Source: Panorpa germanica
Lineage: Eukaryota; Arthropoda; Insecta; Mecoptera; Panorpidae
Assembly (NCBI GenBank): GCA_963678705.1
Contig: OY783217.1
Coordinates: 3,906,001-3,970,000 of the forward strand
Direction: 5' to 3'
DNA length: 64,000 bases
The notes beneath the pieces were generated by a model. That model worked only from the letters and a program-made list of their open reading frames with translations. It had not been told where the DNA came from and did no database searches. The translations under genes and the position numbers were made by a program. Of this stretch, positions 17,101 to 41,657 are shown piece by piece (positions within the stretch are counted from its first letter, which is position 1; the number at the start of each line of letters is the position of its first letter).

Positions 17101-20100
17101 ACTATTCTATTATTACATTGAGCACCATCCAGAAAAATTTAGATCGAAAAGAAGTCAATCGTTAAAAACAGTTACTGAAGAAATTGCTAAAGCTATGGCA
17201 ACGCGTACTCCACACAGAGTAGTAAGCCATGTTAGGAATTGTAAGAATACTTGTGGAAAAACTTGTCCTATAAAGGTATAATTCATAAATTACCAGATCC
17301 TCATAATCCATTATATTACATACATATTACTTTATTTTCAGTATTTTTTAACATATGGTGAAGCACCCTCAGTTAAACATTATTTACTACCATTTTATCC
17401 TGACACTCCACCCCGTTGGCAAGATAAAGAGAAGCTGCCGTGCAGTTGGCAGCTATATTTATATAAGAATTCTAAAATTAAAGTTAGTAATTATTACTTC
17501 TATTAATAATTTATTCCTTAATTGTTTTTAAGCAAAGCGCCAATGATATTTACAGATGTGTTACCCGATTGTTTAAAAAATTGGTGTTTTATAATAACCT
17601 GATTTAGCTTTTTTATGTTTCCAACTATATTACTCACTTCAAATCATTAAAACATGTTTCAATTCTGTTTCCATAAAGTGGAGTAAAACTTTTGTTGTTT
17701 ACAAGCAAATTGGAAAAGATAGTTCTTTTAATTCGTTTAAAAACTATTTTCTTTGGTAAAACATAGCATTATTTTAAAGTTAAAGATGTTATACTTTTTT
17801 AATTTATCAAATATTGTCAAATAACATATATAACCTAAAAATTCCAGGATCGTGGTTTAAACAAATTAAAGCCCAGTATTCTTACTAACTTAAGTAAAAC
17901 AAAACTGATAAGCGAAGAAAATAGTGAAGGTATATTTAACGTAGATGGGAATGTTGATTTTATACGGAAAACAGAACAATTTCCTACGAAAGAACGTCAA
18001 ACTTCGTTAACCCAACTTCCAACTGAAACACTACAACTACACCCTGCATCAAATCAATTACCACTTCCACCAGCTGGGAAATACCTTTCAACAGTAGTCC
18101 AAAATCAACAAATTCCATCATTAATACAGCAACAACTTCCAATAGTTGTCACTAATACTGTATCAAGTCATATGTCAATAGACTCTCACTTAAAGTTTAA
18201 TAATTCAACACCAGTTGTAAACAATTTCGTCCAAACTGCTGATAACAATATTGGAGTCCGTTTGATAAATATTACTGGTTTGTGTAACTTTAATGCTGCA
18301 AGTTCTTTACCGCAACTAATTTACATTCCTCTTTCATCATCTTCCAATCCACAAAAAATAAATAAAACTTCTGTAAACCGTACAAATAGATGTGAAATAA
18401 GTGTACAAACAGAGCCGAAATTTTTACCGCAAACCGTTCAAACAATTGATAACTCTTCAACAAATATTGAATATTTGTCTGAATTTTTAACTCTTAAACG
18501 CGATGACAAACAAAAATTGCTGCCTAATTCGTTTACATCAAGATGTAACTCTATAAGTGATTCTCTGAAGTTTGTAGCTGAAAGTAATGAAATTGCTATT
18601 GATATTGAAAATCATAGAGACTTTGAATTAATTAAGAAAATTGGTGATTTAAAAAATAATATATTTTACAGAAATATATGTATATTGAATGAAGCTTATA
18701 AAGTAAATTTTTTCGACTTAAACAATTCTGTTCTAAAAGATATTGTAGTTCACATAATAACTTTACAAATATTTTTGACTATATTGAATAACATGTTGCC
18801 ATCAATGCCAAGTATTACAACTCCTTTAAAGTGTGATATTACAAACGTGAATTCAAATGAAGCAATTAGTTCAAACGTATCAAAACCTTTCGATTATCCT
18901 AGTAGTTCGTCACATAAAGCTAATATCGATTGTTCCGTTGAACCTAAAGAAGGAAGTATTGAAATATCAGAAGAAATAGAAGAAAATTGCGAAGAAGCAG
19001 ATGAAGTAAAAAAGGTAAAAAAAAGAAGTAATTTTTAAAAATAGCTTTTTATTATCTGTAAAATATTTTCTTAATTCAATTAAATTATTTAGCAAGTAAA
19101 AGTAAAAACACCCCGGCCATCCCTAATTGAGAGGCGTAAATTGAAATTGCAAAAAGAATTACAAGCTACGAAAGATATGCTCACCCCACAACAGGACGAA
19201 GAAAGAGATGCACGTAAGTAAAGTTTTTTCGAAATATTTATTGACAGTTAGTTCATTTGTAAAATATGTGATATAGTTATGTACCTACATAAACAATGAA
19301 ACATAATAGAAAATATTTATGTTTTCAGAATATGCTTTCGCATATTATGAGAAAGTTTTGGAGAGACTAAAGGGTCCTTATTCTCCCGAATTTGAAAAGT
19401 TTGTTTCTATACTTCAAAATTATGACGCAAACTTACAAGACCCCAGCTGTTTGTATTTAAAGCTAGAAACAATTTTTAGTCCAAGACATATGGATTTGTT
19501 GGATCATTTTCTGTCATTTCTATTACCTGGACAAGCTTCACAAATTGGAAAATTTATGGAACATTTCTTAACCAGTAACATGAATAATTTTATACAAAAA
19601 CTTCAAGTAAGAATTTATATGTTACGTAATGTTTTTATTTAATAGAATATGTTTAATAAGTCTTGATATTGTAGATTTATTTTGCGAAACAGCCGGCTCA
19701 ATTTCGCAAAGTTATGAACAGCATTGCAGATTTATGTACTGTTGAAAATTTATCATTGGAACAAATAAAAAAAACAGTTATTCCACTTTTAAAAGGAAAT
19801 GCTCTTTTAATTGAATGGTTTTTAGAATTATTTCCAAATGAACGACCACCTGAAAGGTATAAAGATATATATGTATAATAATATTCGCATGCTATTAAAA
19901 TTATTACCTTAATAAAACTTATACATTAATTTTTATAGCGACCTAAAGGATTTTGAAAAATTGGATATCGATAAGCATCCGGATGCAGATGATGAGTTCG
20001 AACATTTCCAGTTTCCGGAGGGAGGAGATGATGGTTATGGTGGTCCAAATTGTGTATGCCAATGTCATAATGTTGAAGATGAAAAGTACAGCAATAGAAG

Positions 20101-21331
20101 TCGTCACTGTATACCATGTGGAATGAAGGTATTATTTTTCTATTTATTTTATTTTGGTTAACATTTGGAGAAAATCACTTTATGTTTCTTTTAGTATATA
20201 CAAGGAAGACTTTACATCCAAACTGATAAGGTATTGCGCCCAGCTCAAATTAAGTTTCCTGATTCTAAACAAATGTCGGAACATATAAAACGATTATCAG
20301 TTCGACCTAAATCTTTGAAAAGAAAAGCAGATAATGTCCCTAAATCTCCGACGAAAGTTGTTGTTCTTTCTCCAAATAAAAGTTCCGGAAGTAACGGTTT
20401 CGAGGAAAATAAGGATCATGGGGGCCACGTTGATGAAGATGTTAAAAAGTCTCCTAAAAAGTTAAATAAAACAACAAAAACACCTACATCACTAAGAAAT
20501 AAAAGTCGCGTGTCTAGAAACTGCAAAGTTGTTATACGCGAAGGCACAGAATTCTGTAAAACTGTTATAAATAATAAAACCAGCAACAAACGGGGCAATC
20601 AAAATGTTACCACTAAAGTAATTGAAAATAATGCACCAGATTCAACTCAGTCTGTAAATGCTTCAAAATTAAAACATCCGGACTCTAATAAAAATAAAAA
20701 TGACAATATTCAAGTAAATATTTGTGATTCAACAGGTGATGATATGAGTTTTGCAAATGAAGTAAAATGTGATACAAAACATGAGAAGCCGGTAATGCCT
20801 CCAGTTAAAGAAGTTCCACCAGATGTACAATGTATTAGGGATGATCCAGGAAGTGATATGGATGTAACACCAGTTCAAAATAATTCTGAAGTGTCGGATT
20901 CTGTTTCAAATGAGAGTAGTGCACAAATTAGTAACTATAGTAAAGACAGTGATAATTCTACGATAATTGAAAAGGACGTGTCGAAAATAAAAGAAACCAA
21001 AACAAAATCAAAAGATAAAAATGAAATAAATTCTAAAAATCAAATAAATACCTTAAGTAAAGTAAATAAAAATAAATGTGACAAAAGGGACCAAAAATCG
21101 ACCAAGCATGAAAAATCATCCGAAGAAAATAAAAATGAAAGTGGTAAAGTGGTTTGGACAAGAGAGGAAGATACAGTGATATTAAAAACTTACCAAGAAG
21201 AATCTTGTTCGGACGTTGCTATAATAAATAAAATATGTAAAAAGTTGCCATATAAAACTGAAGCTGAAATTAAAGATCGTTATCAAGTAATTATGAATTT
21301 ACTTAAAATGAAAATGCAGGAAGTAGAATGA
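14126..21331 (+). CDS. mute: GON4L / Mute (muscle wasted) homologue, 20 exons
   Basis: Nuclear transcriptional co-regulator; Drosophila Mute is a histone-locus-body component. Exons: 14126-14295, 14376-14493, 14560-14666, 14729-14885, 14992-15132, 15204-15417, 15493-15561, 15882-16102, 16179-16418, 16524-16663, 16741-16767, 16842-17009, 17080-17275, 17342-17482, 17848-19014, 19093-19213, 19329-19606, 19675-19856, 19939-20128, 20195-21331; all phases close (about 1727 aa). GON4L hallmarks in order: L-S-V-A-N-V-K-N-I-L then V-T-N-E-H-V near residue 90; DSSDEEYHP; A-L-R-T-R-S-K then P-P-D-I-T-K-D-M-Y-D; DPEYNP; V-Y-P-E-L-L-P; a PAH-like helical region (about 1133-1285); a Cys cluster C-V-C-Q-C-H..C-I-P-C followed by G-R-L-Y-I-Q-T-D-K-V-L-R-P (about 1323-1365); and a C-terminal Myb/SANT domain V-W-T-R-E-E-D (about 1670-1725). 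Exon 15 (1167 bp) is a Ser/Thr/Asn-rich low-complexity segment. The start is the first ATG in frame with exon 2. Confidence 0.9.
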
Positions 21332-22408
21332 GTTATCTAATTTTAAGGAATTGTAAGAAAGAAAATAGATGCTGAAGGTTTGTAAATTTAATTTAAAGTT
21401 TTTAATCAAGCAGACGTTCCTAGAGACTTCGGGCTAAGCCTTTGTAAGACTGGTGTATTAGTATATGTTATATTAGTACGTGACTAAGCTGTGAAAAGAA
21501 TGTAAATAATAAACATTATTTTGTTACAAATATTTATCGAAATATGAGCATTTTGAATGTATGTTAAACCTTCTTGTTCATTAACGCATTTTTGTTATTC
21601 AAATCTTTGTTATTCGGTAGTCTTCACTCATAAGGAATATTAGAGGAAATGGTTAGTAAATTCATTTGCAGGTGGAAAATAAATTTCGTGAGCAATGAAA
21701 ATAACCATTATAATTTTTTAAATCACATTTTATTCACATAAATAATATAACTACAATTCTATTTAGTAATGTATATTTAATAACCCTTAGCACACATTAG
21801 CAAAGTCATTCTTAAGACAATATTATGTTTTTGTAGAAGGTTCGAACAAATAGATGGCCTCACTAAGAAATTTGTCTTAAGACTGTCTTGCCAGAAGTGT
21901 GTTCTAAGCTTTAAAAACTTATCAACACAATTTTTTTTATCAAATTTAGGAACCACTGAGCCCGAATCTGTTCTTTGAAAATTTCTCTGTCTCTAAAGTT
22001 CTTTTAAGTTATGTTCATTTCTTAGAAATGTGAAGTCTTCTATGCAATAGATCAAATCTTTTAAACATAGTTAAATAATGTGATGACAGTTTTAATATTT
22101 AGTAATTCTCATTTTATATAAATATATTTATTTCTTTTAATATCAAAGTTTTGAGTACATAATAATATATTTTAGATTAATATCTAGACTAGGTATATAA
22201 TTAATATCGTACAGTACTATATTACATTGTTAGATACATTAAGATAAGAAATATTGCTTATTTATTAATATTAATTTTCTGATGCAGCCGTATATATTAG
22301 ATTTACTTTGTATATATTAAAATATGATATATTTTTCTAAACGCAGAAATTGTTTATTTTTTGTAGTCGTTCATTCTTTTTAAAATTTAAAATATAACTT
22401 ATTAGATT
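21332..22408. other. 3' flank between mute and the nearest ninjurin last exon
   Basis: AT-rich non-coding DNA that is copied almost unchanged at 23632-24709. It should contain the 3' UTRs of the converging mute (+) and ninjurin (-) transcripts. Confidence 0.6.
21508..21513 (+). terminator. Polyadenylation signal of mute
   Basis: AATAAA lies about 177 bp after the mute stop codon; the same signal is present in the duplicated copy near 23809. Confidence 0.45.
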
Positions 22409-22645
22409 TTAGCTTTGATGTTTGATTATACTATTAACAGAATCTGCTAAAACTTTGTTTGTATCTGCGTTTAAAAAGGTATCTGTTTCCTTCATATCAA
22501 AAGCACTAATCACCACGTTAACAGCCACGCTAATAATATTAATACATAAACAAATATTATTACATTTCTCTGCCGTTTTTTGTTCTTCTTTTTCGTTTAT
22601 ACTTAGTGCAGTGCCCATAACAACACAAAGAATTCCTTGTAGAAT
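22409..22645 (-). CDS. Ninjurin alternative last exon d, copy 1 (duplicate)
   Basis: Identical in protein sequence, acceptor and phase to the exon at 24710-24946, and located at the matching place in the duplicated block. It is the most distal last exon, 6.9 kb from exon 2, and lies about 1.1 kb from the converging stop codon of mute. Confidence 0.68.
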   Translation of the reverse strand: MLQGILCVVMGTALSINEKEEQKTAEKCNNICLCINIISVAVNVVISAFDMKETDTFLNADTNKVLADSVNSIIKHQS

Positions 22646-25600
22646 CTAAAAGTGCAAAAAAAAAGAAAATATATATAAAGAAAAAATACATAATAAAAAT
22701 AAATGTGTGCGAACATAAGACTAAATATAAATAATTCACTTTTGAAATTATGTTACTTTATGTACTCAACTGTTCGGGGAATATGATCTTAGTAGTTGAA
22801 GTGCCATAAAATTATAATATAATTCTCATTTTATCTGACATTTTATCCTGACACTCCACCCCGTTGGCAAGATAAAGAGAAGCTGCCGTGTAGTTGGCAG
22901 CTATATTTATATAAGAATTCTAAAATTAAAGTTAGTAATTATTACTTCTATTAATAATTTATTCCTTAATTGTTTTTAAGCAGAGCGCCAATGATATTTA
23001 CAGATGTGTTACCCGATTGTTTAAAAAATTGGTGTTTTATAATAACCTGATTTAGCTTTTTTATGTTTCCAACTATATTACTCACTTCAAATCATTAAAA
23101 CATGTTTCAATTCTGTTTCCTTAAAGTGGAGTAAAACTTTTGTTGTTGACAAGCAAATTGGAAAAGATAGTTCTTTTAATTCGTTTAAAAACTATTTTCT
23201 TTGGTAAAACATAGCATTATTTTAAAGTTAAAGATGTTATACTTTTTTAATTTAACAAATATTGTCAAATAACATATATAACCTAAAAATTTCAGGATCG
23301 TGGTTTAAACAAATTAAAGCCTAGTATTCTTACTAACTTAAGTAAAATAAAGCTGATAAGAGAAGAAAATAATGAAGGTATAATTAACGTAGATGGGAAT
23401 GATGATTTTATACGGAAAACAAAACAATTTCAATGAAAGTGGTAAAATGGTTTGGACAAGAGAGGAAGATAAAGTGATTTTAAAAACTTACAAAGAAGAA
23501 TCTTGTTCGGACGTTGCTATAATAAATAAAATATGTAAAAAGTTGCCATATAAAACTGAAGCTGAGATAATAGATCGTTGTCAAGTAATTATGAATTTAA
23601 TTAAAATGAAAATGCAGGAAGTAGAAGAATGAGTTATCTAATTTTAAGGAATTGTAAGAAAGAAAATAGATGCTGAAGGTTTGTAAATTTAATTTAAAGT
23701 TTTTAATCAAGCAGACGTTCCTAAAGACTTCGGGCTAAGCCTTTGTAAGACTGGTGTATTAGTATACGTTATATTAGTACGTGGCTAAGCTGTGAAAAGA
23801 ATGTAAATAATAAACATTATTTTGTTACAAATATTTATCGAAATATGAGCATTTTGAATGTATGTTAAACCTTCTTGTTCATTAACGCATTTTTGTTATT
23901 CAAATCTTTGTTATTCGGTAGTCTTCACTCATAAGGAATATTAGAGGAAATGGTTAGTAAATTCATTTGCAGGAGGAAAATAAATTTCGTGAGCAATGAA
24001 AATAACCATTATAATTTTTTAAATCACATTTTATTCACATAAATAATATAACTACAATTCTATTTAGTAATGTATATTTAATAACCCTTAGCACACATTA
24101 GCAAAGTCATTCTTAAGACAATATTATGTTTTTGTAGAAGGTTCGAACAAATAGATGGCCTCACTAAGAAATTTGTCTTAAGACTGTCTTGCCAGAAGTG
24201 TGTTCTAAGCTTTAAAAACTTATCAACACAATTTTTTTTATCAAATTTAGGAATCACTGAGCCCGAATCTGTTCTTTGAAAATTTCTCTGTCTCTAAAGT
24301 TCTTTTAAGTTATGTTCATTTCTTAGAAATGTGAAGTCTTCTATGCAATAGATCAAATCTTTTAAACATAGTTAAATAATGTGATGACAGTTTTAATATT
24401 TAGTAATTCTCATTTTATATAAATATATTTATTTCTTTTAATATCAAAGTTTTGAGTACATAATAATATATTTTAGATTAATATCTAGACTAGGTATATA
24501 ATTAATATCGTACAGTACTATATTACATTGTTAGATACATTAAGATAAGAAATATTGCTTATTTATTAATATTAATTTTCTGATGCAGCCGTATATATTA
24601 GATTTACTTTGTATATATTAAAATATGATATATTTTTCTAAACGCAGAAATTGTTTATTTTTTGTAGTCGTTCATTCTTTTTAAAATTTAAAATATAACT
24701 TATTAGATTTTAGCTTTGATGTTTGATTATACTATTAACAGAATCTGCTAATACTTTGTTTGTATCTGCGTTTAAAAAGGTATCTGTTTCCTTCATATCA
24801 AAAGCACTAATCACCACGTTAACAGCCACGCTAATAATATTAATACATAAACAAATATTATTACATTTCTCTGCCGTTTTTTGTTCTTCTTTTTCGTTTA
24901 TACTTAGTGCAGTGCCCATAACAACACAAAGAATTCCTTGTAGAATCTAAAAGTGCAAAAAAAAAGAAAATATATATAAAGAAAAAATACATAATAAAAA
25001 TAAATGTGTGCGAACATAAGACTAAGTATAAATAATTCACTTTTGAAATTATGTTACTTTATGTACTCAACTGTTCGGGGAATATGATCTTAGTAGTTGA
25101 AGTGCCATAAAATTATAATTTGAAAAGTTGCTTTTTAAACAATAAATAACTTGTCTGCGTTAGCCATCTGTTTCATGCCAGCCAGACGACTAGGTGTTAA
25201 TAAGAAATTATAAAATAAAGAGTGCAACACGTGTTATCACTTGTCTATTTCGGTTGTTTACAATTACGATAGAGAAAGAATATAAATATGGAAAAAGGTA
25301 AACATATTTTAAGGTTTTATCGTTGGTAAAGTTAAATTGTATATTCTAATAGCTGGATCTAATCCGAAATTCATTTTAATAATATCGCAGAATAATGCTC
25401 CAGTAACAAAACCAAGTGCAACATGATTTAAGATGGCGGCCATTTGTCTGGGTTGTTCACCGTCGTGTAGGCTGAGTACTGTCAAAATAGCAGCCAAAAT
25501 CGCGGCCACTACCTAACCAAAATAAACAAGTGACTTTAAAGGTAAGACTGTAATCTAATCTAAATTAACTGCTATAGTAGAGAGTCAGATTATGTAATTA

Positions 25601-28600
25601 TTTAATAAGAAACTATTATCTTATATTCGATAGTGTTTTCTTGCGGTTTCACTTTATGCATATATTTATTTAGCTACATTAAAAGATCACTACGCTTAAA
25701 AATTGTATATGCAGTTTACAACAAACTATTAGTAACATTAGAAAGTTAGCTGCTTTTATCAGTCACTATTTCAAGTGCGCTTCTTTTGCACGTATGATTC
25801 AATTGTATCCAGTTATAATTTATTAATAACCCGGACAAAATAAACATTTGAATTAGCTATATTTCGCATAGAGCTGAAAGTTGGTACAGACCTTGGGTAC
25901 ACTATTACAAATAAAATACTAAAAGTCCTTACCGATCGTATATCTGCAAAAAAGGTTATTCAAGATTAAAGGTCAACAAAAATGGTTTTTCCAATTTTTC
26001 CGGTAAACGGTAGGTGTTATCATAAAAATAGATCAGACCAAAGTTGTAGATCATGAAATTATCTCCAAAAATTGTTCTTATACTTTTTTTCTAAGAATCA
26101 CAATTCCTGAGATATTGCGATTCTAAAAGTCGTATTCCACATAATATGCACACATTTCCACATCACCTGTGAGGTAGTGTTCCAAGCAAACATTTTGGAG
26201 TCACTTTGACATCATATTGAAGATGCGTCATGATTTTTTTGTCATGACAGAGTTCATTTACAGTTCAGTTTCTCACAGTCTTTCATATAAAATGTCTACT
26301 TTATCGTCTACAAATGGCGAAATTACTCCACTTGTCGGAATACAAATGAAGATAAAGTTGATGCGAAGTATAATTGAAGTGAAATAGTGATAGAAACGTC
26401 ACTAAATAGGACGTTTTTTAATCTAATTTGTGGTAATGTCAATAATATACGATAAAAATTGACTATTACTGAATCAAGATAACACTATTGTGATGTTATC
26501 CTAGATATCCTTGAGCAAATGAAAGTAAAATGATCTCATAATTCTTGTATTATGTGAACCACTGTGAACATGTGTTAAGTTTATTGATGCTTTACATAAA
26601 ATATTTTAACTTGCACTTTAAATAGTTCATTTAAATCACATTGCATAACTGTGTAATTTCGGAACACTTTGTATATTCTCACAATCGTATAATTTGTATT
26701 TACAAATTACACAAACCAATATTTTAACTCATATTAAACATCCGATGGCGTGTACACATATAGGCGGGTTCAGCGTACATATTATTGTTTTCTGTGATTT
26801 AGAATCGCAATATCTCAGGAATGGTGATTTTTAGAAAAAAAGGTATAAGAACAATTTTTGTAGATAATTTCATGATCTACAACTTTCTTCTGATCTATTT
26901 TTATGATAAAACTTACCGTTTACCATAAAAATGGGAAAAACCATTTTTATTGACTTTTGACCTTGAATAACTTTTTATGCAGATGTGCGATCGGTGAGGA
27001 CTTTTAGTATTTTATTTGTAATAATGTCCCCAAGGTGTATACCAACTTTCAGCTCTATGCGAAATATAGCTAATTTACCAATATTTTATTATTTATTTTG
27101 AATGGATTACCCTAAACCCCAAACTATAGCTCTGGTTAAAGACGCACATACATACATTATATCTATTTAGATTAATTTTAATATGAATAAAATTAACATT
27201 AAATCTGTCTCTCTACTAATATTATTAATAAATATTTTCCTTTTCTAATAATTTTAAGGGATGATTTGAATGTTCAATACCAAAACCTGAGATTATAACA
27301 TTTACTAGTGATATTATAAATACAAAAACTAAAATGACATCATTCAATATAACGGCCGCTGTTTGATCTTTTTTTTTGTTGATATTTAGGCCTCCAATCA
27401 CAACAAACATTATGCCGACAATCATCTGTAGAAAATAAAAACTATTGTTTTTTATTTATTTAATTGAAATTGTGTATTATTTAAAAATAGATTGAAATCG
27501 ACATTACAAGGATAATTTGTTACTTTCACATTTGAGATCTAGAACATACAAGTCATAATATTTGATGAATCATTAAAATTTTAGCATAACATAAATATAA
27601 AAGTTTAAATTATTATGATGCAATATATTCAAGGTTTTTTTGAGGTAATCTTCATATATCTATGTAACGACTTGATTTTATTAAATTTACTGTTACGGCA
27701 ATTCATAATAATAATCAATCTAATAGAATATTGCGCCAAAATTGATATTTGTTGTTGAATTCCTTATTTACTACGATAATATGTTGTGAAATAATTAAAA
27801 TTAAACTCTTAACGATAAATAATTAAACTTTGAATCATATAAATTATATATCACTTGCCATAAATAATAATAATAACATTTAAAAATTGATAATTGATTA
27901 GTAATCAATATATTTAGCTATTGTTGGATCAAAAGCACTAATAAGTAAATTAAGAGCAGTTACTCCAAAAGAACAGCCTGTGGTAAATAAATTAATCACA
28001 TTTGCGGAGTAATGAAATTCTTTCAAATGTAGCTTGCAGTCTCGCATTAGGTTCAAAGATAGAAATATAAGTCCCATTAGTACCTGTTATCAATATTAAA
28101 CATGCTATATAGTCCAGCCGAAAAAATGAATTAGTTTTATACATAGACTTTAAAGAGACTTTTGTTTCAGGAGGGGTTTTTATTGTTTAAATATTATTAG
28201 GCTTATACTCGTATATCTTATTGATTTTAGGAAGATGGAATGGACTAAATTGTTCAAGTTGTACTTCAGACGCTTCTTTACAATACTGATTTCACAAAAT
28301 TCAGTAATAACCGGTTCTCCTAACACTGGAGTTTAAGATATCCACCATATTGGAAATTAATGTTTCCAATAGTAAATAGTAATGGACTTGTGTCCTATGT
28401 CTTAATTTCTATAAAAGTGTACTATATATTGATACTGGGTTACTAGAACCTCAAATGTTTAATTATTTTTTAATAACTCCTTATATGTTAAGAGATATTA
28501 CCAATTAAAAAAGTCATTTTGTCTTTTTAATTATTAAAGGGATTCAACGTTGTACACATTCCAAGTGCATGTGACATCACAATCCTTGTGTAATGTTACC

Positions 28601-31045
28601 AACCTTACAGCTCATAAATCTCTGCTATATGTATTTATATATCAAATATTATTTACAGCTATTTCAAGGAACAAACAAATTTCAATATTATGTCTGCCTT
28701 AGCAGGGTTAAATAAAATAAAAACGTATTATTCTTTGATTTGACTTGATTATTTGACTACCAACAGCTACAAAACATTACCACAGCACTGACCTACTCAA
28801 CAAATAACTGACGTAAAATGCATTTCACGTCATACAAATATGGCCGACCATTTCTAGCGCTAAAACTACAATTCAAACTTTTAATTGCTATATCTGACAT
28901 GCCAATACACATTTATTAACATCAATTTCAATCAACAATTGAAAAATCGACCACTAAAAAATGAGGACACAAGCCCATTTGCAATTTTTTATGTAAATTA
29001 ATTTTACTATAGTCTTGAAATACATAATTTATCCGGTTTTTCATTAACCGAAAGGATGAAAAAGTGGCTAATGGTTAATGCTTACTTTCGTGTCAAAATT
29101 TCAGTCTTCGAATGCTTCAAAATACATTAGATTCAGCGGGCCAGGCTGTCTATGACTGGACTAATAAATAAATGTAAAAAGTTGACGAGATACAAAGGTT
29201 GTAACCTACAGATATACGTCATGCTATGTAAATCAATATATAAGGTATTTTGTGTCAGGAAATAATTCTAGGAAGCGTGGTATGTATTTTATTGCGGCGT
29301 ATTGATTTTACAAAGTAGAGGCAATTAGAATAAATATTGTAGAATATAATTTATGAGTGTCGGAAAATATATAAATGGAACAAGAAAATTAATCATGGAA
29401 ATTCTATACAATGCTTTCGTGAAGAAATAATTCTATCATGATTTCCTAGAATTTTTAATTTACTTTTTTTATAATTGTAATTATAATTAATTATTTTAAA
29501 GTAGGATAACTTTCCGAGAAAATTCGAAATCTAATTTATCTAATTTATTAAAGATTAAATTAATACTTACTTGAAGAATTATTGAAATTGAGATTAAAGT
29601 CAACATTAAAGTATAAAACTCATGTTTTTCGCCAACTTGCAGAATGTATTTAAGTTGACTCGCATTTGCTGTTAAAAGGGCAATGTCTAGCATCCCCTGA
29701 GCTATAGTTTTCTTTGTCGCATACCGATTTGCATCCAGGAGCTTCATCTGAAAGAGAAAATATTTGTATTCGTCATATAATAATCGTTATTGTACTAGCT
29801 ATATACTTAATCTTTTTATAACCCAGTAAACATTTTGGAGTAAATTCTACTTAATTTCTATTACGTATCATGAATTTTTTGTCTGGAACGTGTTCGTTTT
29901 CTATTCAGTCGTTCAAAGGAAAGGTCCTTTTTATGAGCTACAGACATTGCAACGACGGTTCACTGCTGAATTAAAAGCGGAGTAGGTTTATGATTTATGA
30001 CCGGATAATAAAAATATACCCATGTGGGAAAGAAACAGAAATACTTAATGAATGATGTTGGAAAAAGAAAGAATATTATTATGAAAAACTAACACAAAAT
30101 CTGTGACAGGTAGAGAACTTGTAAAGCGTTAGAATAGAATTGTACGAGTGACTCGAACTTCACCAAATTGTTTACTGGGAATCTAGTATTAGTGACAGTA
30201 ATTAAATTGCATGTCTTGTCTCATCTTATTCTTTATTAGCATTATCATAGGTTTTCTTATCAGTATCATCTGCAATTGACGATTAATGTTCAAAGAATGT
30301 GATAAAATACCCATCAATGATCCTTTCTTTGTTATTGCTCAAAATCTTACAAGTCCAATCATGCGAAATATTTTTATAATATCCCAGTAAACAATTTGGT
30401 GAAGTGCCCTATTTAGTGACGTTTCTATCACTATTTCACTTCAATTATAGTTCGCATCAACTTTATCTTCATTTGTATTCCGACAGGTGGAGTAATTTCG
30501 CCATCTGTAGCCGATAAAGTAGACATTTTATATGAAAAAATGTGATTTTATATGTCAAAGTGACTCCAAAATGTTTACTGGGATATTTAAATATTGGTAT
30601 TTTTTTTTTGTTATTACTTATTGGCATTTAATACCAATGATTTAAAATCGAATTATTTTGTTCATTTCTGTTCAGACTGTTTTTGTTCTTCTTTAAAAAA
30701 TCACAACACAAATATAACATTTACGTAAGTTATAAAAAACATTAAGTACTGTTTTTAAAAGCAGATATTTACAAATGCATTGTTCGTACAAATAATATAT
30801 CGGCAAGTGAGAAACAGCACATCTTTTGTACATTGATACATACACAAATATATATCCACAAAAGTTAAAAAAAAATTGCTAAAACTTACTAAAAAATCAC
30901 TTACACCAAGAAAATCAGGGTCATCTTTTGAATTATTTTCTACTTCTTGACCCGAATCTGGTTTATCCTTACCAACTTTATCAGGTATGGAAGATGTACT
31001 AGGTCCAGCGAAATTATCATAAGTAAATATTTGTTTAGAATTCAT
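22409..31045 (-). CDS. Ninjurin gene with an array of alternative last exons
   Basis: Ninjurins are small two-pass membrane proteins; vertebrate NINJ1 oligomerises to rupture the plasma membrane during lytic death, and insect members act in stress and tissue remodelling. Exon 1 (about 30905-31045) and exon 2 (29571-29747) give an acidic N-terminus and the family signature (Y-A-T-K-K, then M-L-D-I-A-L-L-T-A-N-A-S-Q-L-K). Exon 2 ends after a Gln codon at a phase-0 donor, in the middle of the first membrane helix. Downstream on the same strand are five exons with an acceptor, matching phase 0, the remainder of helix 1, a loop, a second membrane helix and a stop: 27898-28083, 27225-27425, 25309-25512, 24710-24946 and 22409-22645. 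Predicted isoforms are about 167, 172, 173 and 184 aa. Which Drosophila paralogue (NijA, B or C) it matches is not decided. Confidence 0.85.
22839..23632 (+). pseudogene. Broken mute fragment (exon 14 end, exon 15 start fused to exon 20 end)
   Basis: Within the duplication, exon 15 (from about 23296) is joined by the deletion to the last part of exon 20 near 23431-23432. Exon 15's frame meets TGA at the junction (TTT CAA TGA), while the SANT domain continues in another frame, open from about 23393 to the stop at 23630-23632. The PAH-like region, Cys cluster and most of exon 20 are absent. A few amino-acid changes have accumulated in the SANT part (for example a Cys where the parent has Tyr before Q-V-I-M-N). 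It is most simply a non-functional remnant, though exon 14 with its donor survives and could act as a splice decoy for mute. Confidence 0.8.
24710..24946 (-). CDS. Ninjurin alternative last exon d, copy 2
   Basis: Acceptor ACTTTTAG, phase 0, 78 residues. It starts I-L-Q-G-I-L-C-V-V-M-G-T-A-L-S, continues with a charged loop (N-E-K-E-E-Q-K), TM2 ending N-V-V-I-S-A-F-D, and a 25-residue tail with a stop at 24710-24712. It lies inside the tandem duplication and encodes exactly the same protein as the exon at 22409-22645; the one coding difference seen (GTA versus GTT, Val) is silent. Confidence 0.72.
   Translation of the reverse strand: MLQGILCVVMGTALSINEKEEQKTAEKCNNICLCINIISVAVNVVISAFDMKETDTFLNADTNKVLADSVNSIIKHQS
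25309..25512 (-). CDS. Ninjurin alternative last exon c (divergent)
   Basis: Acceptor TTGGTTAG, phase 0, 67 residues. It starts V-V-A-A-I-L-A-A-I-L-T-V-L-S-L, then an acidic/Gln loop, the motif A-A-I-L-N-H, and a second hydrophobic helix ending C-D-I-I-K-M-N-F-G. The N-[LV]-[LI]-I-S-[AG]-F motif shared by the other exons is replaced. Its base composition is more GC-rich than its neighbours. It may be specialised or drifting. Confidence 0.65.
   Translation of the reverse strand, partial: VVAAILAAILTVLSLHDGEQPRQMAAILNHVALGFVTGALFCDIIKMNFGLDPAIRIYNLTLPTIKP
25851..27075. mobile_element. 1.2-kb element with terminal inverted repeats of about 285 bp
   Basis: The left arm (25851 to about 26136) starts AATTAGCTATATTTCGCATA; the right arm (about 26795-27075) is its inverse complement at roughly 90% identity by eye. 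The arms enclose about 660 bp holding a second, shorter inverted-repeat element. No transposase frame is visible. It resembles a fold-back or long-TIR non-autonomous transposon and lies between ninjurin last exons b and c. Confidence 0.75.
26180..26415 (-). mobile_element. Nested MITE of the CCCAGTAAACA family (decayed)
   Basis: This segment (AAACATTTTGGAGTCACTTTGACA onward, in the inverted sense, to CGTCACTAAATAGGACG) matches the interior of the element at 30382-30592 read on the other strand. The shared part includes the blocks ACTTTATCGTCTACA and AGTGATAGAAACGTCACTA. It has been inserted into, or captured by, the long-TIR element. Confidence 0.6.
27225..27425 (-). CDS. Ninjurin alternative last exon b
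   Basis: Acceptor TTCTACAG, phase 0, 66 residues. It begins M-I-V-G-I-M-F-V-V-I-G-G-L-N, has a Lys-rich loop (N-I-N-K-K-K-D-Q), then TM2 ending N-V-I-I-S-G-F-G, then an H/E/K-rich tail. It is closest of the four to the vertebrate arrangement, with L-N at the end of TM1 and F-G at the end of TM2. Confidence 0.78.
   Translation of the reverse strand: MIVGIMFVVIGGLNINKKKDQTAAVILNDVILVFVFIISLVNVIISGFGIEHSNHPLKLLEKENIY
27898..28083 (-). CDS. Ninjurin alternative last exon a
   Basis: Acceptor TAACAG, phase 0. It encodes 61 residues: V-L-M-G-L-I-F-L-S-L-N-L completing TM1, a charged loop (R-D-C-K-L-H-L-K-E), then a second hydrophobic helix ending N-L-L-I-S-A-F-D, followed by a short tail and TAA at 27898-27900. 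The N-[LIV]-[LI]-I-S-A-F motif corresponds to N-I-F-I-T-A-F in vertebrate ninjurin TM2. It contains no upstream ATG of use, so it makes sense only as a spliced last exon. Confidence 0.75.
   Translation of the reverse strand, partial: VLMGLIFLSLNLMRDCKLHLKEFHYSANVINLFTTGCSFGVTALNLLISAFDPTIAKYIDY
28381..28979 (+). mobile_element. Family 1 TIR element, copy C
   Basis: Same orientation and content as copy A, with ATGGACTTGTGTCCT on the left and the family terminus on the right. An interior stretch near 28880 lacks about 30 bp present in copy A. It lies in the ninjurin intron between exon 2 and last exon a. Confidence 0.8.
29571..29747 (-). CDS. Ninjurin exon 2 (family signature, amphipathic helices and first half of TM1)
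   Basis: This 59-codon exon lies between acceptor CTTTCAG and donor GTAAGT. It carries A-N-R-Y-A-T-K-K-T, M-L-D-I-A-L-L-T-A-N-A-S-Q-L-K and the hydrophobic run F-Y-T-L-M-L-T-L-I-S-I-S-I-I-L-Q. In NINJ1 the region before this hydrophobic run forms the amphipathic helices needed for membrane rupture; it is constant in all isoforms here. The first codon is ATG, so an internal start could give N-terminally shortened protein. Reading on through the donor gives only 24 further residues before a stop. Confidence 0.9.
29823..30181. mobile_element. MITE of the CCCAGTAAACA family, longer copy
   Basis: The left end ACCCAGTAAACATTTTGGAG and the right end CTTCACCAAATTGTTTACTGGGA match in inverse the two ends of the element at 30382-30592. 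The interior of about 320 bp differs. It lies in ninjurin intron 1. Confidence 0.6.
30382..30592. mobile_element. MITE with TCCCAGTAAACA termini and TA target duplication
   Basis: The termini TCCCAGTAAACA and TGTTTACTGGGA are exact inverse complements, flanked by TA on both sides. The 211-bp length, lack of coding capacity and TA duplication suggest a Tc1/mariner-type MITE. It lies in ninjurin intron 1. Confidence 0.75.
30905..31045 (-). CDS. Ninjurin exon 1 (N-terminal cytoplasmic or extracellular tail)
   Basis: ATG at 31043-31045. The exon encodes 47 residues rich in Asp, Ser, Lys and Pro, ending D-D-P-D-F-L-G before a GTAAGT donor. A second GTAAGT 15 bp further in frame would extend it to 30890 and add V-S-D-F-L. 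Both donors leave phase 0, so exon 2 can join either way. The acidic, unstructured character matches ninjurin N-termini, which are poorly conserved. Confidence 0.7.
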
Positions 31046-33542: not shown

Positions 33543-36411
33543 ATGTAAGATTAATTGAATTATTTAGATTACATACCAACAGTTATTTTTTAACATAAAT
33601 TTATGTTCTTTAACGTTAATAAAACATAAAAAAATTTATTCAAGATTATATAGTGTTACATATTAAATGAATATATTAGTAACAGATTTTGCATTTATGT
33701 AATGACTGTATATAACAGATATGTAAAACTTTCGGTAAATGTAAAGCGTAACGTTTATGTGTTTAGCGGGTAGCTTGATATTTATCTGCTACGTTATAAA
33801 TCATTGACATTCAATACAAAATAAATTCCCGTATATAAATAATTATGTCATAAAAACATGTTCTCATTAAATATCTCTTTTAGGAAAAACTATGTACAAT
33901 TTGTCAGTGCTGTATATATCGATTAAACAAAGGTATTGCCACTAATGCCAGTCGTTGTGTGATAGAATTGCAGGCCTCACAAAGGAAGTATGCTTTGATG
34001 CATTTGAATGGTTGCATATGTATGAGTAATTTGTAATTTCCTTTGCGATTTCTGTATTTGTCATTGAGTAATTGAATTTATTCTTTTATTAACTACTATA
34101 CAATGTGCCACTCAGATTGTTAGCTCATTAAATATATTTGGTATGCTGACTTATAGGCATTGTAATCTTAAATTTAATTCTCGATCAAAAATAGTAAATT
34201 AGGAATAGCCTTGCAATATTTAAACATATTTTTTGTACTAAAATTAAACTTTTAGAAGAATTAGTTTTTATTTTTTTAATAAATAAAATTAATACCTACT
34301 TAAATTTGTTACACAGTGCATAAAAATTATGCAGAACTGTCTGACTCTCAATAAATAGTGCCACTATTGAGAAATCCTTAATATTTTTAGATAGTACCAA
34401 CCTTCAAACACTATGTGTTAATATTTCATGATGATGCTACTTTTGTAATTTTCAAAACAATGGAAAAATTTAAATTTCGTGTGTTGATAAAGCATTGCTT
34501 TTTAAGAGGAAGAAATACTGTTCAAGCAAAGCAATGACTTGATAAGTGCTATTCGGACAATGGACTATTTAAGTCGATATTCTTAGTTATCGCGGTCGAG
34601 TCTTGATTTTATCACAAGTGAAAATTACTACACAAAATAACAGAAAGGCATTAAGTAAGGTTTTTTAATATAGGTAGTTTTAACTTAGGTTTATTTATGA
34701 TTCTATCTTTATTACCCAGTGAAAATATATTCTGATTCCAGAATCGAACCGGAAAGCACAACACACTAGCGTTAACCATATCGTAATTGAAAAACCTTAC
34801 CTTGAAATAACCGAACTATACATTGTTTCACTTTTTTAATCTGAATTTATTGTATTACAAATTTCTGAGTTTAAATTAGTATCAAAAATTCTTACCCCAT
34901 CCTGTTCTTGTCTCAAGAATTCTGGAGAAATCGAAGCCATATTTATTTAGGTAGTTTTTATAAAAAATATAATTTAATAAAAAATAAAAATAATTTTTTA
35001 GTTATATAAAATATTCTGTTAACTAGTAAAACGTTTAAAAAATATATTTATTAAAATATGTCTCGTAATATCGAAGTCATTTCACTCAGTAATCTGAAAT
35101 CAGACTATTGGTGTAGTGACAGGCTGCATGGGTTTAACGTGTTGTACATTTGCGTTAGTGGTGTGGCACCGACATAAAAATATTGATGAATTGCTAAACA
35201 ACATTAAAAAAATAACGACACACAAAACAATGTATTTGCTTGTCCTTATATATATCACACTTTAAAGCTAAATATATTTCGATGTAAACGAAATTGTATC
35301 GAACAGAACATATATTTATTTTTCTTCTGGACATCACTTTCTTTGTACGTATAGGACTCTGTGTACATGTATATTACCATGGCGATGAGTGACTCAACTC
35401 ATACTCCGTTGTGAACAGCAACAAAGAAAGGTATTTAAGGTTATGTTGAAAGAATATTTTAATTTTACCAATGTATTTAAATCTTTGTTGCATTATGTTT
35501 TTTGCTGGGATATATTTAATATATGATAGACATAGTAAGAGTCTGAAAATGGAATATGTTTTTTATTTTGACTGTTATTTGCATACCTGTGCGATAGCAA
35601 CGCCAAATTATTTAGGAACTATTGGGGGTACATTGTTTTTAATTTTTGTTTAAAGTTATTTTGTTAGTGTGTAAGACATTAAACAAATTTAGTTTTGATT
35701 ATTTAAAATTAGGTTATATATACATATTTTAAGCAGGTTATAATTAGATATTTACAAAGAAAAATAATAAACATTTATACTTGAAATTAATATTTACATA
35801 TATTCAACTTTTGATTCTTTGCCACAAATAAAATGGTCTAAGCATATTAAATCTGGTAGATACATCGACAAAACAAAATTATTATTTAATTCTCCCCACC
35901 GAAATATTTAATTTCATTATAAAGAGTTAGATTATATATTGTAGCAATTCTTTTTCTCTCTTCAGTGAAACTTTGCTTCAACTTTCAATTTTGTAATTGA
36001 ACATTCATATTTCATTTATTTAATTATTTTAGGTATTATTCTAATACACTAAATTTCCTTTTTTTAATCTCATTTATCCGTAGCTTATGCTGTTATTTGC
36101 TTTTACGTTCCATACTATGTAATATGCTTAAGCAATGAGATATTTTTCAGAAAACAAGGCGTCGCTGCTTTATTTGCCATACAAATATAACAACTAAGTA
36201 AATAAATTGTTTTCTTTCATGAAAATTCAAAATTTTGAATAAAACTAGATTTTGTTTTTTTTATTTGAATATTTCCATTTTAATAATTTTATCAAATTGA
36301 TACTTTTTGGTTAGAAAAGCATTATAGTTTGTGTTAAGATATTTTATTATTAATATTTTTATATCCATTAATTGAAAACTCGTGAAGTATAATAAATACG
36401 CAAAAGTGACG

Positions 36412-39194
36412 ATGGATCAGTGTCAGTTAACATTCCCTGCACTGTCTTTCGTTTCAAACATGTCACTTAATTCAAATGATTGTAGTTTATCAAAGGTTAA
36501 TTTGTTCTGGGAAGTAAATCAAGATTTTGAAAAATTTTACCAATATCTGGATCCTTTTCCTTCTACACAAGACCTGGACAGATTGTCTGCGTATTCTACA
36601 CAATTATCACAAAGCACATATGTATCTGGAGATTTGGGTTCATTGGCTGATGTTGGAATTTACTCTAACCTCTTTGAAAGAAATAGTGGAAGAGATATTA
36701 AGATGTCTTCTTCAGCAGGCAATATTTTAATGGGGTGTAATTGGTTGTCGCACATGACCAAACACCCTGTGTCCAAAAAATACTTTAACGCTAAACTTGT
36801 CTTACGGAATAAGGGGTTGCAAGACTTAAGTGCCTTAGGTAACCATCGGTTCATTCAGTGCTTAGACTTGGGACATAATTGCCTACGTGACGTCTCTGGG
36901 CTAGGAAGTCTGCGTTTCTTGATGAATTTAGATTTATCTTATAATCAACTGACCGACACATTGAGCTTTGCGGCTCCTTGGTACTTAACCCACGTGGATT
37001 TGTCACACAACTGTATAAAAACAATTAACGATTTTTCGGAATATTGGTCACTCGTATATTTGGATTTGTCGTATAACAGAATTGAGAAAATTGATGGTTT
37101 GCAATCGTTAAAGCATCTACGCCACCTAGATTTATCAAACAATGAAATCACCAGAATTGAACATTTAAGTGCCATGAATTTATTGATATTAAACTTAAGT
37201 TATAACAAAATATCATCTTTTGAACAAGATGATAACAAGGGGTTGAGGTCGTTGAAACGTCTAAAGGAACTAAATTTGGAGCATAACGAAATTAGCTCTC
37301 TTGGTTTTTTGGCAAATATGATAGACCTGCAAATATTAGTAATTGGAAATAACAATATCGTAGACATCGTTGAATTGACTTATCTTAGAGGGATGCTGAC
37401 TGTTATAGAAGCATCGTTTATTAATAATGCAGTTTCTAATCACAGATTTTACAGAAATGTCATATTTGACACGTTGAGAGGTGAGTTTATGGAAACTAAT
37501 TCATTAATAACAATACAATGTATTCTAATTTTTGGAAATAAGTCAAAGAGAAATTTAAAGAATGTATAGATCTATAGATTATTGTAGCGCTAATAAGAAC
37601 ATACTCCCAAAAAGAGTAGTGTTCTTAGTTCAGTTTATCTGATAATCTTGTAATTTTTATAATGAAAGAGTAATAAGTGCCCCACACACAAGTTTGAAAT
37701 GTGTTTATGTGCCCGCCCAAAATGGAAGGTGCTTTCTAATGGCGGATTTCCTCGACTCAATATCTATATTTGTATAATAAGTTATAGCATATTTGTTTTT
37801 ACAAATTTATTTTAACTAATATAAGATAAATATTTTAACCATATTTTTATTAATTCTCTTTAACAGCAATACAAATGTTGGATGGGAAAATCATAACTGC
37901 AAAAGAGAAAGTGTCTTGTTGGCCGGGTTATGGGCGCTGCCCAAGAATGCGAGCAAACAAAATTTACAGGTTATTAAAAAATCTTGAAATGATTAATGGA
38001 GGACCACGGATAGGTCCACACGTGATGCCTTGTGATGAGAGTCCAATTCCATTAGTAGTCCTAGTTGGACCTCCAGGTTGTGGAAAATCAAGCGTTGCTT
38101 TTCGTATCCAGTACGAATTTCGACATTATATTTATTGGGCCAACGTACACACAACAGCAGAGAAATCCTTACAAGAATTATACGTGAACAAGCAAGTTTA
38201 CCAAAATAATAATAGGTTAATACATATTACAACAGATAGTTTTAGCAAGAAATTAAAAAATGGTGATTTTTATGCCGTAACAGATATTTGTGGCGCTAGT
38301 TACGGATTCTGTAGTTCAGAACTAGCAACGGCGATTACTTCAAAGAAACTTTGTTTGGTTGTTGGTGATCTTTGCTTTGCTTTGCAGTTAAAACTTCGAA
38401 GACTCTTTCCTTTTATCGTGTTGGCCATGCCCAAATCTTCACATGAATATGTTAAATTTCTTAGTCGTAAATATCGACATAAAGTTTATATGTATGATGT
38501 CAATATTCTCAAAACAATTCGACCGGAGCTTGAATCAATCCTAGATGATCTTCATGTAAATGAGAATTTAGATGTGAGGATAAACAAAGAGGCTACATTG
38601 CTGGATTTGTTGTTCAGTACACGCACAAATAGCTCTTATTTCTTATCAACTCAAGCATCATCCATTAATCAAAATACTACCTATAAATTAAATGAATTAA
38701 ATGAGAAAATGAATATAAATTCCAATTTAGAAAGTTCGTCAAATGACAAAAAGAGTGAAAAGCATATCAACATCGCAGACGCGGCTGTTCAATACGACTA
38801 CCACCCATCTTTTAGTGTGAGTAGTGGTTATTCGGAACCATTGCGTTCAAAATCACTGTCTATCAGTCAGACCGCAATAAGACCATCACCCGAATTGAGC
38901 GGTAACAGTTGTTCTATGGATGGTGACAACTTACCGTCATTCACTCAAGTCCTTGCAGATCCCATGATAGATTTCATTAATTATTGTAAACTTGATCGGG
39001 ATGAATATCTGAGACATTTTGTGGAGTTTGCAGACATATTTACCAAAGTAGTATGGACCGATGATATCAGTTTAGCCATTGCTTCACTTAAGCCAATACT
39101 GAGGAAGGCGTATCGATCTGGGAGTAGCCATTTACAAGATTTAGACGCTTTTTGTGAAGTGGACACTGAAACCCATGATGATATTAAAATGTGA
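36412..39194 (+). CDS. LRRGUK-like protein 1 (leucine-rich repeats plus guanylate-kinase-like domain)
   Basis: Two exons, 36412-37480 and 37867-39194 (donor GTGAGT, acceptor TTTAACAG, phase 1), give 798 aa. The N-terminus ends a short lead (F-P-A-L-S-F) and a Q-S-T-Y-x-S-G motif. SDS22-type leucine-rich repeats follow from about residue 130 to 330 (L-D-L-S-Y-N-x-L/I repeated). The second exon starts with the hinge M-L-D-G-K-I-I-T-A-K-E-K-V, as in vertebrate LRRGUK, then a guanylate-kinase-like domain with a P-loop G-P-P-G-C-G-K-S (about 424-431). The GMP-binding T-T-R motif reads T-T-A-E, so kinase activity is doubtful. LRRGUK in mammals is a testis scaffold for manchette and flagellum assembly; a sperm role here is inference. 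The ATG at 36412 was chosen because it aligns with the starts of the two paralogues. Confidence 0.85.
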
Positions 39195-40067: not shown

Positions 40068-40245
40068 ATACTTTACTTATTAGATAATATATGTATTTGT
40101 TTTTGCATTTGTTTTAAATTGAGTTATAAAATTAAATAAATGTAAATAATTTGAAAAATTATTTCTTATTAATGCAATTATAAAAATTAATTTTCATTAA
40201 ATCAATTGTAATAAATTATTTGAAAAGTTAAATTATAAATACATT

Positions 40246-41314
40246 ATGAGTTACCCAAATTTTTCTTTTCCTATGCTATCGCTTAGTGCAAGATATAATT
40301 ACTCCGAATCAAACACAGACAGAAAATTGGGGTCGAAAATAAATACGTTATGGATAGAAAGCCAAGATTTAGGAAAATATTTTGACAACCATTCATTGTA
40401 TTCTTGCAATGTAATGCATTCGGAAAGCGTCCAGTCCATAGGTTCTCAAAGCACCTACATGTCCGGACAACTGGGACATTTGGGAAAGTTAGGAATCTAC
40501 TCCAGCCTCTTTGACGACAAATTTCCAGATGTCAAGATGATTTCAAAAGAAGGTGGCACTGTAGCGGAGTGCGATTGGTTGAAGTATTTCGGGCGGCATC
40601 CTACCAACAAACGATACGCAGAGTTGAAATTAGTTCTAAGAAACAAGGGTCTTCGTGATCTTTCTGAGGCTCTAGGAAATCATAAAAACTTGCAGTGTTT
40701 AGATCTAGCTCATAACGACTTATCTGACATCACCGCATTAAGCAATTTGCCTTATTTGATGAACTTAGATCTTTCGTACAACTGTTTAACAGAAGTGTTG
40801 TGTTTCAAAGCTCCTTGGAATTTAACGCATGTTGACTTATCCAATAATTGCATACGCACAATCTACGACTTAACCGAATTTTGGTCTTTGGTTTATTTGG
40901 ATTTGTCTTATAATCAAATTAAAACAATAGCGGGATTACAAAATTTAAAACATTTAAGAAATTTGGATATGTCACATAATCAAATAACAAAGATAGAAAA
41001 TTTGAGTAATTTAAACTTACTAGATCTAAATCTAAGTTATAACCAAATATCTGGAGCAGAGACAGGAAAGAAGGGATTAAGAACTCTAATTCATTTAAAA
41101 AGCTTGAATTTGGAGCACAACGAATTAACCAGTTTAGAAGCACTGTCCGACATACCGGAGCTTCAAATATTAATTTTGGAGAATAACAAAATCGAAGAAA
41201 TTGTAGAAATTCCTTATCTTAAGAGTATGAGCTTTGTGGTCGAGGCGTCTTTCAATAACAATCCAGTGACTGCACATAGATTCTACAGATCCGTGGTGTT
41301 GGAAACTCTAAAAG
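40246..41314 (+). CDS. LRRGUK-like LRR exon 2 (no kinase exon of its own)
   Basis: The ATG at 40246 begins a 356-codon exon that matches the LRR exons of genes 1 and 3 along its whole length: M-S-Y-P-N-F-S-F-P-M-L-S-L-S, Q-S-T-Y-M-S-G, then SDS22-type repeats (N-L-D-L-S-Y-N, L-T-H-V-D-L-S) and the end E-T-L-K. A donor (AAAG/GTAGGA) occurs at the same place and phase 1 as in the others. Only 343 bp separate it from the start codon of gene 3, which leaves no room for a kinase exon. It can either join the exon at 42839, giving an 898-aa protein, or read on to a stop at 41449-41451, giving an LRR-only protein with a 45-residue unrelated tail. Confidence 0.8.
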
Positions 41315-41657
41315 GTAGGAATCTAGGTAGAGCATTTGTTTATAATCGTTATGTTTTCCTATTGCATTTTGTTCCGCAGTCGAACCGTAAATTTATACAA
41401 TCTGACGACCCTGAAAGCTGCTTAACGCGAATGTGCCGCCATCTTGTATAATTTCAGTTAGAAGTTGAATCATTTGTTTTAAAAAACTATTTATCGTTGC
41501 ATTTTTGAAATTATATAAACGCTGCTTTTTTAGAAATTATATTTTGCATAATTTTACTTATTTATTTTTATTCACTTGAGCAATTTTTACAAATTTGTTT
41601 ATTTTGTTAAAAGTTACGTTTGATTGTTACCGTCATAATTTTTATTTCAATTTTAAC

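Follow-up and report, generated by a model that had tools for sequence, protein, structure and literature searches.

A Panorpa germanica ninjurin gene with a candidate array of diverged, alternative last exons

Can a single ninjurin gene supply itself with several different C-terminal halves? This question is raised by a 64,000-nucleotide stretch of the Panorpa germanica genome (assembly GCA_963678705.1, contig OY783217.1, positions 3,906,001 to 3,970,000 of the forward strand; hereafter, the window), whose minus strand carries the front coding exons of a ninjurin gene followed by five exons, V1 to V5, that each encode part of a membrane hairpin and a stop codon. A sequence-only reading had proposed that these are interchangeable last exons of one gene. 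Our analysis favors a ninjurin gene with four diverged alternative last exons, one of them recopied recently, among which splicing would choose, and we put the probability of this reading at about 0.8. Judged by its anatomy, the array of alternative ninjurin last exons is real and well formed, which suggests that one gene could make several ninjurin versions.

The part of the gene common to all predicted products is encoded by two exons. The coding part of exon 1 (30905 to 31045, minus strand), as read from its sequence, starts the N-terminal ectodomain (MNSKQIF...DDPDFLG) and ends in a phase-0 donor that we identified by eye (GGT, then GTAAGT, with the GT at 30904). Exon 2 (29571 to 29747, minus strand), the constant half, is 177 nucleotides (nt) long, is preceded by ...ttttctctttcag, and ends in phase 0 with the codons CTT CAA, followed by gtaagt. 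It encodes the amphipathic helices plus the N-terminal half of helix 3, is 54% identical to NINJ1, and by itself matches the Pfam family PF04923 with 94.3 bits over profile positions 1 to 54. In the alignment it keeps NINJ1 K44, K45, and D53 (the amphipathic segment with its K45-D53 pair), I84, and Q91, the last of these aligned with the final Gln of the exon, and the exon junction falls inside NINJ1 helix 3 (residues 79 to 103). When exon 1 and the constant half were joined to V1, V2, V3, or V4, positions 1 to 102 of the 102-position profile were matched in all four cases, with 117.5, 136.8, 114.9, and 130.1 bits, respectively, against a Pfam cut-off of 26 bits, and the solved NINJ1 and NINJ2 chains were the best matches for all four joined isoforms. 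These results bear out the ninjurin identity and the amphipathic segment claimed from sequence alone. The same reading had exon 2 end in phase 0 after a Gln codon within a membrane helix, which is NINJ1 helix 3, and its coordinates for exon 2 and the five last exons were exact to the base.

Downstream on the minus strand lie V1 (27898 to 28083; 61 amino acids [aa]), V2 (27225 to 27425; 66 aa), V3 (25309 to 25512; 67 aa), V4 (24710 to 24946; 78 aa), and V5 (22409 to 22645), a near-identical copy of V4 that differs by one synonymous base in 237 coding bases and encodes an identical protein. All five have an AG acceptor, phase 0, a length that is a multiple of three, and their own stop, and in all five the GC content of codon position 1 exceeds that of position 3. 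Each encodes the remainder of helix 3, a charged loop, and helix 4; V2 is nearest to the canonical ninjurin hairpin, and V3 is the most divergent member. The description of these as five exons, four of them distinct, was thus right, with the fifth being a very recent copy of the fourth. An N-x-x-I-S-[AG]-F end had also been noted, and we found it in three distinct exons (NLLISAF in V1, NVIISGF in V2, and NVVISAF in V4/V5), with DIIKMNF in V3. The residue corresponding to NINJ1 N119 is retained in all four distinct exons in the alignment.

We then compared the V exons with chance. As single exons, V2 and V4 exceed the PF04923 cut-off (33.2 and 26.7 bits), and V1 falls under it (15.4 bits). With leave-one-out profiles, V1, V2, and V4 scored 17.7, 40.7, and 28.8 bits, values reached by none of 2,000 shuffles, and because their scores beat all 2,000, these three exons are ninjurin hairpins by sequence alone. 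For V3, we used shuffles that retain the composition of every segment: the constant half joined to V3 scored 116.2 bits in Pfam, compared to 99.6 to 106.1 bits in all nine of these shuffles, none of which spans the whole profile. V3 is very probably a ninjurin hairpin as well. The structure model of V3, for which the four exons were used, has helices at residues 2 to 16 and 21 to 49 with a mean pLDDT of 66.7 and is compatible, at modest confidence, with a hairpin. In addition, a scan for a pyrimidine tract, an AG, 55 to 90 open codons, and a hairpin pattern, with criteria chosen after the exons had been seen, gave four matches in 9.6 kb (V2, V3, V4, and V5). In first-order Markov sequences the mean was 0.033 matches (one match in 10 of 300 sequences and more in none), and the rest of the window gave four matches in approximately 115 kb of strand, or approximately 0.33 expected for 9.6 kb. 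A six-frame profile search of the window (frames of at least 22 aa) added no further array members above background.

As a control, we searched the species' own 464-Mb assembly, in which the window lies on C14. The PF04923 search gave 13 matches. C14 and C3 have five each, C21 has two, and a single match on C6 is below the cut-off. All five C14 matches are in the array gene, and one of them covers the front of the profile. With exon 2 as the query, there were six matches at an E value of ≤1, and the single one on C14 was exon 2 itself; neither this search nor the PF04923 search found a second constant half near the array on C14. V3 as a query matched only itself, and V1 matched itself and, poorly, a place on C21 with two stops (E value of 0.07). 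We also found no relatives among 37 pattern matches in viral contigs or 170 in prokaryote contigs.

C3 carries two intron-bearing ninjurin genes, which look NijA-like, and one relic with stops. Both genes carry a phase-0 intron directly behind the corresponding Gln, which makes the array junction an intron position shared with the paralogues. Next in the C3 genes come a 35-nt exon (VAVGIGLIWNS or IAVGVGLIWNS), an intron in phase 2, and the last exon; the V exons are without this second intron. Profile searches covered 30 kb around each C3 gene and 20 kb around the C21 pair; the former showed a single C-terminal exon apiece above background, and the latter nothing besides the pair itself. Among the ninjurin loci seen in the assembly, an array is present only at the C14 gene. 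In the C3 relic (C3:370502-370669), a copied exon of the neighboring C3 ninjurin gene has decayed and contains stops. The C21 loci (C21:29268582-29273121) are closely similar and in opposite orientation, with a domain frame that crosses the Gln site without an intron, and the minus-strand locus ends early.

The absence of another constant half nearby, the stop codon in each exon, and the paralogues with the same intron together suggest use as alternative last exons. Of the sequence-only interpretation, the family, the phase-0 junction, the homologous last exons, and the amphipathic segment stand, and alternative use is strongly suggested by the anatomy. V1 to V4 share 18 to 41% identity with one another over 49 aligned positions and 22 to 35% with human NINJ1 and NINJ2, so they are about as distant mutually as they are from the human proteins. 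All four distinct exons have an open frame.

Several observations weigh against this interpretation, and V1 and V3 are the exons whose membership we hold least securely. V3 by itself has no ninjurin match in Pfam and was not among the matches of the genome-wide PF04923 search; its leave-one-out score of 4.5 bits was equalled by 17 of 2,000 shuffles, and two window frames outside the array outscored it. In the 600 nt past its stop, which take in V4, V3 has no AATAAA or ATTAAA, and the variants sought within 420 nt gave only AATAGA, CATAAA, and TATAAA; a V3 transcript may extend across V4. In favor of the array, an AATAAA follows each of the other V exons, the nearest being 216 nt downstream of the stop in V1, 128 nt in V2, and 51 nt in both V4 and V5. 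V1 has a poor pyrimidine tract, with 10 of 21 acceptor positions compared to 12 to 18 in the other V exons (13 in V2, 12 in V3, and 18 in both V4 and V5; exon 2 has 13). It was also missed by the hairpin scan, in which V2 to V5 passed the hydropathy cut of 1.6 and helix 4 of V1 was slightly below it at 1.56; by our own count, the V1 acceptor (7 of 15 pyrimidines) is below the pyrimidine filter as well. The V acceptors are weak near the donor and strong far from it, an order that would allow the nearest exon to be skipped. In a tree of the C-terminal halves, V1 to V4 group weakly (0.87 in FastTree and a bootstrap value of 66, from 49 positions with scant signal), and docking-site pairing of the exon-2 intron with sequence upstream of V1 to V4 gave duplex energies within the null. 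Finally, the genomic PF04923 matches at V2, V4, and V5 extend upstream of the exon through stops (from profile positions 25, 41, and 35, respectively). We read this extension as a chance match of T-rich DNA to a membrane helix because the exon 2 query misses that DNA.

On one alternative reading, only one or two last exons, for example V2 and V4, are used, and the remainder are old duplicates that have kept an open appearance although they are dead or almost dead. The weak V1 tract and the absence from V3 of a canonical polyadenylation signal and of the IS[AG]F end would fit such relics, and open frames of 55 to 90 codons after an acceptor are not rare in AT-rich DNA (mean of 1.66 per simulated region). 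However, in a neutral drift simulation limited to substitutions, only approximately 6% of 56-codon frames were still open at approximately 23% identity and approximately 10% at 36%, a range of divergence like that observed, and V3 outscores all nine segment-preserving shuffles and has the highest GC content of the exons (0.38, compared to 0.28 in its flanks). We consider this explanation improbable. Another possibility is that the downstream exons are parts of independent ninjurin genes in tandem, with a promoter and first exons for every one of them. Tandem gene duplication is common, and V2 begins with ATG, but the V exons start exactly at a splice junction, in phase 0 and in the middle of a membrane helix, and the second constant half that such genes call for was not found near the array. 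We rejected this candidate as highly improbable.

A doubt of a different kind concerns V5 only: it may have arisen in the assembly as an artefact, or it may be a very recent copy that has no function. V4 and V5 lie in the two copies of a tandem duplication of approximately 5.4 kb. The copy nearer exon 2 (22839 to 25119) holds V4. In the other copy (17391 to 22818), which holds V5 and the coding frames of a plus-strand Myb-domain gene, the two matching blocks are separated by 3,150 bp that the V4 copy lacks. The blocks at 21134 to 22818 and 23432 to 25119 are 98.9% identical over 1,688 bp, and those at 17391 to 17983 and 22839 to 23431 are 97.6% identical. So close a tandem match, with the single synonymous difference between the two exons, is what an artefact or an idle copy would look like, but allelic misassembly would also have to explain the 3,150-bp gap and the flanking block at 97.6%. 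We consider this explanation of V5 rather unlikely. Differences within the 1.7-kb V4/V5 block are unevenly placed, with 9 in approximately 200 positions at the Myb-gene end and 7 in approximately 1,490 in the remainder (Fisher P = 2e-5), and gene conversion around V4/V5 is possible. The Myb-domain frames (17839 to 21331, plus strand; one Myb-like domain, PF21227) lie tail to tail with the array, and fragments of them reappear between V5 and V4 (23287 to 23632).

If the gene indeed has four alternative last exons, a single ninjurin last exon would have been duplicated in tandem long ago, giving rise to four diverged versions, one of which was copied again recently. Splicing would join the phase-0 donor at 29571 to one last-exon acceptor, and the chosen exon would bring its own stop and 3' end. 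From the ectodomain through the amphipathic helices to the middle of helix 3, all products would then be the same; they would vary from there on, across the second half of helix 3, the loop, helix 4, and the tail. By analogy with NINJ1, the swapped part would hold the faces of helices 3 and 4 that pack neighboring subunits, so the choice of isoform should set whether filaments form and with which partners.

To see what such a swap might change, we read the exons against NINJ1 mutants. In excerpts of one study, K45Q, D53A, I84F, Q91A, G95L, T123L, I134F, and A138L reduce NINJ1 filaments and lysis (PMC10307626). These sites map to both sides of the junction: K45, D53, I84, and Q91 would be constant in all isoforms, and the sites of G95, T123, I134, and A138, together with that of F117, fall in the swapped half. 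The residues at 95, 123, 134, and 138 are G, T, L, and A in V1; G, L, V, and G in V2; A, L, I, and N in V3; and G, L, V, and A in V4. At the strongly co-evolving pair G95-F127, V3 has A and T, and V4 has G and I. By these alignments, V3 is the exon that departs most from the NINJ1 sites. At 123 the C3 and C21 paralogues have L or V, and at 138 they have S, so changes at these two positions alone are no sign of loss. The same excerpts describe an A47L mutant that is inactive in cells but still forms filaments (PMC10307626); position 47, Ala in NINJ1, is Ile in the constant half of the array gene and Leu in the C3 paralogues.

According to the available part of a review, F117 of NINJ1 and Q103 of NINJ2, which is cholesterol bound and does not cause rupture, separate the two proteins in part (PMC12547243). 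The F117 position is non-polar, as in NINJ1, in V1 (V), V2 (I), and V3 (I), and polar, as in NINJ2, in V4/V5 (K). Two facts speak against a simple reading of this site. First, the residues at this position are N, K, and R in the two C3 genes and one of the C21 genes. Second, the C3 genes look NijA-like. The Drosophila NijA protein induces cell death, as stated in the excerpted report (PMC3460944). The review passage also states that exchanging the first 30 residues of NINJ2 for the N-terminal region of NINJ1 is sufficient for rupture (PMC12547243). Such a region would be common to all isoforms of the array gene, so there may be other switches besides the hairpin. Within these limits, swapping hairpins could, by analogy with NINJ1, tune oligomers or rupture. 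A bolder version, which we regard as unlikely but offer tentatively, is that the array acts as a selector through which one gene gives rupture-competent subunits and rupture-incompetent or dominant-negative ones, all with the same front half, and with mixed filaments deciding whether a dying cell bursts. The residues at the F117 position and the loss of the G95-F127 pair in V3 are among the observations behind this version. NINJ1 T123L, in the excerpted study, failed alone and yet raised rupture alongside the wild type (PMC10307626), and because of this behavior, L at position 123 in V2 to V4 would fit mixed filaments.

We also noted other features of the window and assembly. The ninjurin introns contain diverged inverted repeats (25851 to 27075, 91% identity; 26273 to 30545, 96% identity) that are probably remains of mobile elements, and an Rfam scan of the window gave no matches at the gathering threshold. 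On the plus strand, a leucine-rich-repeat frame (36376 to 37569) comes first, then a frame (37854 to 39194) whose guanylate-kinase match is below the cut-off, then frames at 40201 to 42746 that appear by eye to hold further copies of the leucine-rich repeat, and last a region at 42775 to 44466 that resembles the kinase-like part and matched no Pfam family. Elsewhere in the assembly there are 20 COX1-like stretches, one on the mitochondrial contig C249 and 19 on C1, C3, C5, C6, C10, C12, C15, C16, C21, and C115, including two equal-scoring places on C5 approximately 104 kb apart; those outside C249 are probably nuclear mitochondrial insertions. The tRNA order on the mitochondrial contig is I-Q-M, as opposed to the M-I-Q order that marks ditrysian Lepidoptera.

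The array has counterparts in other genes. In Drosophila mod(mdg4) and lola, transcription factors are given different ends by splicing common 5' exons, in part through trans-splicing, to one of several last exons, whereas the array gene would swap half a membrane helix and a hairpin. Genes of the Dscam type have tandemly duplicated, homologous exons that are mutually exclusive; in contrast, the array exons each have a stop, and no docking-site pairing was found for V1 to V4. The gene resembles NINJ1 and NINJ2 in its full-length PF04923 match, amphipathic segment, and helix-loop-helix hairpin but differs in having four putative alternative C-terminal halves, 22 to 29% identical to NINJ1, after one front half. 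It shares the ninjurin domain with Drosophila NijA, NijB, and NijC. Excerpts of two papers give Drosophila three ninjurin genes and describe no hairpin array in them (PMC11664169 and PMC3460944); a NijA figure legend refers to "all four exons" (PMC3460944), and one of the two papers mentions mRNA sequencing for splice variants. The literature we surveyed, including PMC5353688 and PMC12919058 and otherwise mostly titles and the starts of abstracts, contained no alternative hairpin exons in a ninjurin, and annotations of other insect genomes may already list such exons among predicted isoforms.

NINJ1 makes dying cells burst. If the array is used as its anatomy suggests, it would be a natural domain-swap series in which the amphipathic half is fixed, offering a direct test of the role of helices 3 and 4 in rupture, and it would add a splicing layer to the control of lytic cell death in an insect.

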